This document shows, piece by piece, positions 77-59,090 of a stretch of DNA of 59,110 bases. The position numbers and the translations under genes were made by a program. The number at the start of each line of letters is the position of its first letter. The first letter of the stretch is position 1. This DNA is from Sphaerochaeta sp. Phil3 (GTDB taxonomy: Bacteria > Spirochaetota > Spirochaetia > Sphaerochaetales > Sphaerochaetaceae), in assembly GCA_001940825.1 (NCBI GenBank), contig MSGT01000060.1, forward strand, positions 1-59,110, written 5' to 3'. Below the pieces are notes generated by a model, which searched no databases, was not told the DNA's origin, and saw only the letters and a program-made list of their open reading frames with translations.

Positions 77-104
77 TTGACAATGTGCTGGGGGGGGGTA
101 GACT
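77..104 (+). promoter_or_regulatory. Promoter with a G9 tract in the spacer, for the lipoprotein gene
   Basis: TTGACA at 77-82 is a perfect -35 box and TAGACT at 99-104 a fair -10 box. The 16-bp spacer ends in nine consecutive G residues (90-98). Gain or loss of one G would move the spacer to 17 or 15 bp, so the promoter has the layout of a slipped-strand, phase-variable promoter. It lies 53 bases upstream of the lipoprotein start codon. Confidence 0.75.
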
Positions 105-117
105 GACGTCGTCAGTC
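101..117. promoter_or_regulatory. Inverted repeat overlapping the -10 box and start point
   Basis: GACTGAC and GTCAGTC flank a 3-base centre and overlap the -10 box and the expected transcription start of the lipoprotein promoter. The position suits a repressor site. It could equally form a small hairpin at the 5' end of the message. Confidence 0.45.
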
Positions 118-156
118 GGGGAGAATCATCATGCCCCACTGTCAAAGGGGTAAAGA

Positions 157-1275
157 ATGAAGAAGAGTTTCTTTTTTGTATGCCTATGCGTGCTTGCTCT
201 TGCATTGGTCGTATCCTGTGCGGAGCCTGAAGCAGAGGTCAAGTCGTATACCGTTGCGTTCGATTCCAATGGTGGAAGCGAAGTTTCTGCCGTTGTCGTA
301 AAGGATGGCGAGAAGGTTGCAAAGCCAGAGAATCCGACTAGAGATGGTTATGTATTCGGCGCTTGGCAGTTGGAAGGAAAGGATTTTGATTTCTCATCAG
401 CAATCACAGCGGACACCAAGCTTGTCGCAAGCTGGATTGAGATTAAGCACGTTGCAGATCTTTCTGAAATCAAGACTGTCGATGAAAAGACCGCCTCGTT
501 TGGTTATGGTTCTTCATCCAGCGAAGCAGTTGTCATAGATGGCAAAGGTCTCTATGTCGTAGACGAGTGGCAGGATTTGTGGTTCAGCCATGATGTTACG
601 GTCAAGGGCGTAGCGTTCGCAAAGGGTGTCAGTTTCAATGCAGAAGGTACAGAAGAACGTACCATTTCCATTGAAGACTGTGTCATAAGACATTGCGACC
701 AGAAGAACGACTTGCTTCCAAAGGTCGATGCCAATAACAATTTCAGAATCGACAACTCTGGAAACGGCCTTTGCCTGAGCATTGATGGAAAGGAAAAACA
801 GACTGTCAACATAGTAGTCAGAAACTGCCTTTTGATTGGAGACAATGACGCTGCTCAGGGAAGAAAGGATTCCTGGCCAACTACCAATGATTACATATCC
901 AACAAAGACAACGCCTCTTATAGAAACTTCAAGGGTCGTGGAAACGGCGTTGGACTTGGAACAGCAAGTGGAAACGGTGGATTCGTGAAGGAAGTTGCAA
1001 TAGAGAATTGCACGTTCTCAGGTTTGAGGAATGCTGCAATTCAGCTTTATACATTCGATGCACCAATAAGTGTGGCTGGCTGTACTTTCGAGAGTTGGGG
1101 AATCAACAGCAGCGAACCTACATCAGAGGGTAAGTATGAGTCATATGCAATCAGAGGTGATGTTTCAGCTTCTTCCCATGGCGATGCAAGTCTTACAATC
1201 ACTGGTTGTATATTCGATTCTGCAAAGGAAGATTATAGGTGTAAGATTGACAATCTAACTCCGACTATTAATTGA
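157..1275 (+). CDS. Surface lipoprotein with one InlB-type B-repeat and a beta-helix-like body
   Basis: The N-terminus is a lipoprotein signal: a hydrophobic stretch to about residue 20 and a lipobox ending in Cys 21 (VVSC). Residues about 30-95 form one Listeria-Bacteroides (Flg_new/InlB B) repeat, with FDSNGG and a closing W-x-x-G/A-F pattern. The rest carries recurring motifs such as IEDCVIRHC, VRNCLLIG, IENCTFSG and ITGCIFDS, spaced like rungs of a right-handed parallel beta-helix. The protein is therefore probably an exposed lipid-anchored adhesin or carbohydrate-interacting protein; no catalytic function can be assigned. AAAGGGG precedes the ATG. The gene stands alone and is followed by its own terminator. 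Its promoter has a G9 spacer, so expression may vary between cells. Confidence 0.8.
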   Translation: MKKSFFFVCLCVLALALVVSCAEPEAEVKSYTVAFDSNGGSEVSAVVVKDGEKVAKPENPTRDGYVFGAWQLEGKDFDFSSAITADTKLVASWIEIKHVADLSEIKTVDEKTASFGYGSSSSEAVVIDGKGLYVVDEWQDLWFSHDVTVKGVAFAKGVSFNAEGTEERTISIEDCVIRHCDQKNDLLPKVDANNNFRIDNSGNGLCLSIDGKEKQTVNIVVRNCLLIGDNDAAQGRKDSWPTTNDYISNKDNASYRNFKGRGNGVGLGTASGNGGFVKEVAIENCTFSGLRNAAIQLYTFDAPISVAGCTFESWGINSSEPTSEGKYESYAIRGDVSASSHGDASLTITGCIFDSAKEDYRCKIDNLTPTIN

Positions 1276-43430: not shown

Positions 43431-43595
43431 ATGGGTCACTACATGCATCTTTCACTGGAAGAGCGGGAAATGATAATGGCTTTGCACCATGAAGGACGCA
43501 GGGCAAGCGAGATTGCACGTGCAATCGGGAGGGACAGGAGTACAATCTCAAGGGAATTGAAGCGCAACCGCCTCTGGCGGCATGGCAGACCATAA
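43431..43595 (+). pseudogene. IS30-family transposase remnant (N-terminal HTH only)
   Basis: The frame reads HLSLEEREMIMALHHEGRRASEIARAIGRDRSTISRELKRNR, the IS30 transposase helix-turn-helix, and ends at a stop after about 54 residues; the DDE catalytic part is absent. Sequence at 43328-43350 (CACTTG...CAAGTG) just upstream may be what is left of the element's left end. No matching right end can be defined. Confidence 0.82.
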
Positions 43596-59071: not shown

Positions 59072-59090
59072 CCCCCCCCCCAAAAAAAAA
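59072..59090. repeat. C10-A9 homopolymer tract
   Basis: Ten C residues (59072-59081) are directly followed by nine A residues (59082-59090), about 70 bases upstream of the infC -35 box and at the window edge. It is a prime site for slipped-strand length change, or for assembly error. Confidence 0.85.

Follow-up and report, generated by a model that had tools for sequence, protein, structure and literature searches.

Introduction

The switching of promoters by changes in spacer length is an already known mechanism. In Neisseria meningitidis, a poly-G tract lies in the −35/−10 spacer of the porA promoter, and transcription changes with the spacing (PMC7864442). In the spirochaete Treponema pallidum, a poly-G tract is located between the −35 and −10 boxes of tp0126, which encodes an OmpW homolog, and transcription is best at a spacing of 17 nt (PMC7864442). 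Poly-G length also affects the promoter activity of the T. pallidum genes tprE, tprG, tprJ and tprL. The tprL tract is made of 7–11 G, mostly 9, and varies within isolates; transcription of tprL begins four bases downstream of it (PMC7864442). In spirochaetes, switching by a tract inside the spacer has so far been documented for a few outer-membrane genes of T. pallidum. Among open-licence papers, we found none combining “Sphaerochaeta” with “phase variation”, and no account of poly-G promoters in spirochaetes of the gut or rumen.

The locus described here is located near the start of a stretch of 59,110 nucleotides from Sphaerochaeta sp. Phil3; this whole stretch is called the window below. 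The original prediction placed at this locus a phase-variable-type promoter in front of a lipoprotein gene, with a spacer that the gain of one G would bring to an optimal 17 bp.

Results

Re-reading of the sequence confirmed the predicted anatomy of the promoter at positions 77–104 (plus strand, as for all features below unless stated). The −35 box TTGACA (77–82), which is the same in all paralogs, is followed by a 16-bp spacer (83–98) consisting of ATGTGCT and of nine G (GGGGGGGGG, 90–98). This G9 tract, the proposed slippage switch, abuts the −10 box TAGACT (99–104). TAGACT is the −10 box in six of the nine pattern-matching promoters of the Phil3 genome, and the spacers measure 15, 16 or 17 bp in the paralogs and in the family of this genome as a whole. 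A scan for promoter boxes revealed four promoter-like sites, compared to 4.1 expected in shuffled sequences. A chance promoter was considered and rejected: the boxes alone are at chance level, yet the G tract and the promoter family exceed it. An inverted repeat, GACTGAC-GTC-GTCAGTC (101–117), overlaps the −10 box and the probable start. It is largely kept across six paralogs and, judged from the sequence, is a possible candidate for an operator.

The gene behind the promoter (157–1275) encodes a lipoprotein of 372 amino acids with a lipobox ending in VVSC. As predicted, the protein contains a B-repeat domain (PF09479, E 5.9e-15 in Pfam), with one Listeria-Bacteroides repeat (Flg_new). The B-repeat was the only domain that the Pfam search found in the passenger of this lipoprotein. 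The Beta_helix domain PF13229 was significant in one paralog (5.9e-15 in Pfam), and the passenger in the window is probably beta-helix-like. An intrinsic terminator-like hairpin followed by a T run is present downstream of the gene (1296–1315). The conserved 5′UTR (118–150) comprises GGGG (118–121), CCCC (134–137) and the Shine-Dalgarno-like AAAGGGG (144–150). Two mutually exclusive pairings are available to the CCCC, with the upstream GGGG or with the GGGG of the Shine-Dalgarno sequence, and this arrangement is largely kept in the paralogs. The fold energy of segment 118–150 was not better than that of shuffled sequences. An RNA switch in the 5′UTR was rejected, as the exclusive pairings exist but the fold energies match those of shuffles or are worse.

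The distribution of G/C runs in the window was discontinuous. Runs of lengths 1–5 numbered 16260, 4953, 802, 147 and 22, respectively, lengths 6–8 were absent, and one G9 and one G10 were then observed. The exact counts in the 2.36 Mb Phil3 genome were 11 for G7, 8 for G8, 15 for G9, 9 for G10 and zero for longer runs, with a possible error of one in homopolymer lengths taken from assemblies. These lengths form a hump at 9, where a decay would predict about one G9. The tract is long enough to slip, and the hump, together with the absence of matches to the reversed promoter pattern, indicates an enrichment over chance. The G10 run of the window (59072–59090, minus strand) is preceded by T9, 29 bp from the contig end, and is located approximately 70 bp upstream of a good infC promoter.

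The pattern TTGACA-N-Gn-TANNNT occurred nine times in the Phil3 genome and its reversed form zero times. A tenth promoter, on contig C4, has a shorter and interrupted tract. The 90 bp from window position 77 to 166 have five further copies in this genome with 84–89% identity, and the other promoters of the design are on contigs C27 (two), C61 and C34. Every copy examined, except the one on C34, is followed by a lipoprotein leader. The six close copies have a common promoter, 5′UTR and leader, after which the passenger domains differ. An identical G9 is present in four of these six paralogs; in the two others the tract is broken by an A, and slippage would be damped there. Poly-G was also observed inside coding sequences at two loci of the genome (L053 and L055, at C18:7486 and C25:9420), in the form of a G9 lying in frame within a signal peptide and of a G8 at the frame shift between ORFs of 118 and 272 amino acids. 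This suggests that these coding tracts, too, are switches, acting at the translational level.

An IS end (AACTTAAATAAATAACTTAC), adjoining an IS30-type transposase remnant on contig C32, is present in six copies in the Phil3 genome (L050, L055, L056, L059, L072 and L074). Five of them are located 41–42 bp upstream of a G7–G10 run and the sixth at 57 bp; in the latter, what looks like a tandem duplication of 16 bp lies in between, and its subtraction would restore a distance of 41. This arrangement suggests an insertion sequence with poly-G tracts as its target. The window itself contains an HTH_38 (IS30-type) transposase remnant (43440–43568, an 86-aa frame). A search for HTH_38 in 15 other genomes gave one match above the cut-off, and one more only when in-frame neighbours were included. 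The sequence CTTTTGTTACAGCCCC, common to the ends of several contigs (L017, L052, L071 and L073), is probably the end of another mobile element.

The promoter design recurs well outside this genome. A scan of the family detected the pattern in 24 of 101 genomes and the reversed pattern in none, and the G run abutted the TA in 99 of the 104 matches. At the level of the class, 45 of 297 genomes, distributed over 20 genera, contained the design, with zero for the reversed control; a genome from family f24 had the highest copy number, 11. The homopolymer lies inside the −35/−10 spacer in the window, in the Phil3 family and in the class scan alike. Ten sampled genomes of the same genus, most of them incomplete assemblies, gave no detectable copies. 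In JAGCPA010000054.1, a yak-reticulum MAG of the Spirochaetia, the G-rich spacer between the same boxes is interrupted and measures 18 bp, and a lipoprotein follows. This lipoprotein is 66% identical to the one behind a G9 promoter in G209, a genome that belongs to the window's class. The assignment of the window to Spirochaetia was based on this relationship. A simple lipobox rule (regex) classified at least 47 of the 76 downstream ORFs as lipoproteins, and 18 further ones had signal-like N-termini, several of these being lipoproteins missed by the rule. By comparison, a similar rule recognized one lipoprotein among the 61 gene-like ORFs of the window. Lipoprotein leaders are thus present both in the Phil3 family and among the class-wide downstream ORFs. 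The downstream proteins, when compared between genomes, were mostly distant relatives.

The promoter design in the window is not due to chance. The window does start where its contig starts, and homopolymers are prone to errors, which could point to a chance or artefactual origin; the independent assemblies of the 45 genomes, all sharing a design whose reversed pattern was never found, refute this origin for the design as a whole and leave it a negligible probability, while the tract length at the window site could be off by one. The other genera keep TTGACA-Gn-TA but without the 5′UTR of the Phil3 genome. This observation argues against a transcription start located elsewhere, with a tract that is neutral or acts at the RNA level and with a control exerted through the 5′UTR or the inverted repeat. 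Such an organization would fit the conservation of both elements across the six paralogs and the two exclusive pairings of the CCCC around the ribosome site; given also folds no better than those of shuffles, we consider it very improbable.

Differences in tract length were observed between closely similar copies. In genome G114, loci L121, L124 and L125 share the same 60 bp upstream of the tract and the same 42 bp downstream of it, yet have G9, G10 and G10, respectively. In genome G106, L131 and L134 have G9 and G10, and L133 and L135 have G9 and G11, the flanks being 95–100% identical within the pairs. Orthologs in two species of family f24 (L186 and L187, in G253 and G227) show a G13 in a 17-bp spacer versus a G9 in a 13-bp spacer. 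All these cases come from the relatives. Because near-identical copies and orthologs differ in this way, the sequence around the tract changes more slowly than the tract itself.

Spacers covered a range of 12–21 bp overall. The commonest spacer was 16 bp in the Phil3 genome and in genus g11, 19 bp in genus g32 and 15–16 bp in family f24, and the commonest tract was nine G in all four. The part of the spacer outside the G tract measures 7 bp in the Phil3 promoter and mostly 10 bp in g32. Since the nine-G tract is found regardless of the spacer, the assumption that 17 bp is the ON state may not hold everywhere, and a universal 17-bp rule appears doubtful on these sequences. The phase-variable-type reading of the original prediction was thus strengthened by the promoter family, the recurrence in the class and the tract differences, but its choice of 17 bp as the optimal length is weakened by spacer modes of 16 and 19 bp. 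With the same G9 in differing spacers, slippage appears to determine the length of the tract, and the default state may depend on the spacer bases outside it. The DNA of G tracts is closer to the A-form, and an A-form-like tract may shift the best spacing.

It is possible, but unlikely, that the tract has a fixed structural role in the promoter, either as stiff A-form-like DNA or as an activator site, and is maintained for this role instead of for switching. The almost constant contact of the tract with the −10 box, the predominance of nine G whatever the remaining spacer and the identical G9 in four of the six close paralogs are consistent with a fixed part. The near-identical copies that differ in tract length alone are difficult to reconcile with it, as are the wide range of spacers and the tolerated interruptions of the tract. 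Moreover, the tprL tract, which is variable, likewise has nine G as its predominant length (PMC7864442).

Discussion

Spacer-length phase variation, as in T. pallidum tp0126 and Neisseria porA, appears to us to be the best explanation for these observations. The locus is, with good confidence, a slippage-prone lipoprotein promoter. It belongs to a family with nine or ten members in this genome, and to a set that extends across the spirochaete class. We propose that the tract next to the −10 box gains and loses G's by slippage during replication. Each such change would alter the length and the twist of the DNA that separates the −35 box from the −10 box and, by this, the strength of transcription. 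Differing tract states would then produce a population whose cells display different lipoproteins. In the window promoter, one additional G would give a spacer of 17 bp, probably the stronger form, and the loss of one G a spacer of 15 bp. As the same design is repeated within genomes and in many spirochaetes, sets of lipoproteins are probably switched by single G's. We infer a high frequency of slippage within strains and a dependence of expression on tract length, the within-strain change of the tract being suggested by the T. pallidum tprL data.

A wider proposal would be a lipoprotein phasome extending across the spirochaete class. Its standard part would be a tract of some nine G next to the −10 box, held near this length by slippage in every lineage. 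The number of spacer bases outside the tract would be an inherited setting, on which it depends whether the nine-G state is mostly ON or mostly OFF. We put it forward tentatively, as an idea that may well turn out to be wrong.

Multigene and class-wide use of this mechanism for lipoproteins appears to be undescribed in the open-licence papers that were searched. Here, the tract in the spacer is a recurrent lipoprotein device in many spirochaete genera, most of which are represented here by draft assemblies, and a single genome contains up to 11 copies. The design makes candidate surface lipoproteins easy to recognize, and the promoters that carry it predict a variety of surfaces from cell to cell. 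They also offer many natural examples in which the effects of spacer length and of G-tract geometry on transcription can be dissected.

Among the known systems, the window promoter resembles tp0126 in having poly-G between the boxes, in a tract length that sets the spacing and in its spirochaete host. The gene tp0126 is a single outer-membrane protein gene, whereas a multigene set of lipoproteins is concerned here, six of them with a common promoter, 5′UTR and leader. With porA, the promoter shares the position of the poly-G in the −35/−10 spacer; porA is, in contrast, one porin gene in an unrelated phylum. The poly-G at the promoter is also a likeness to tprE, tprG, tprJ and tprL, and the tprL tract similarly has mostly 9 G; however, these genes are porin-like, and the tract of tprL is placed differently relative to the boxes.
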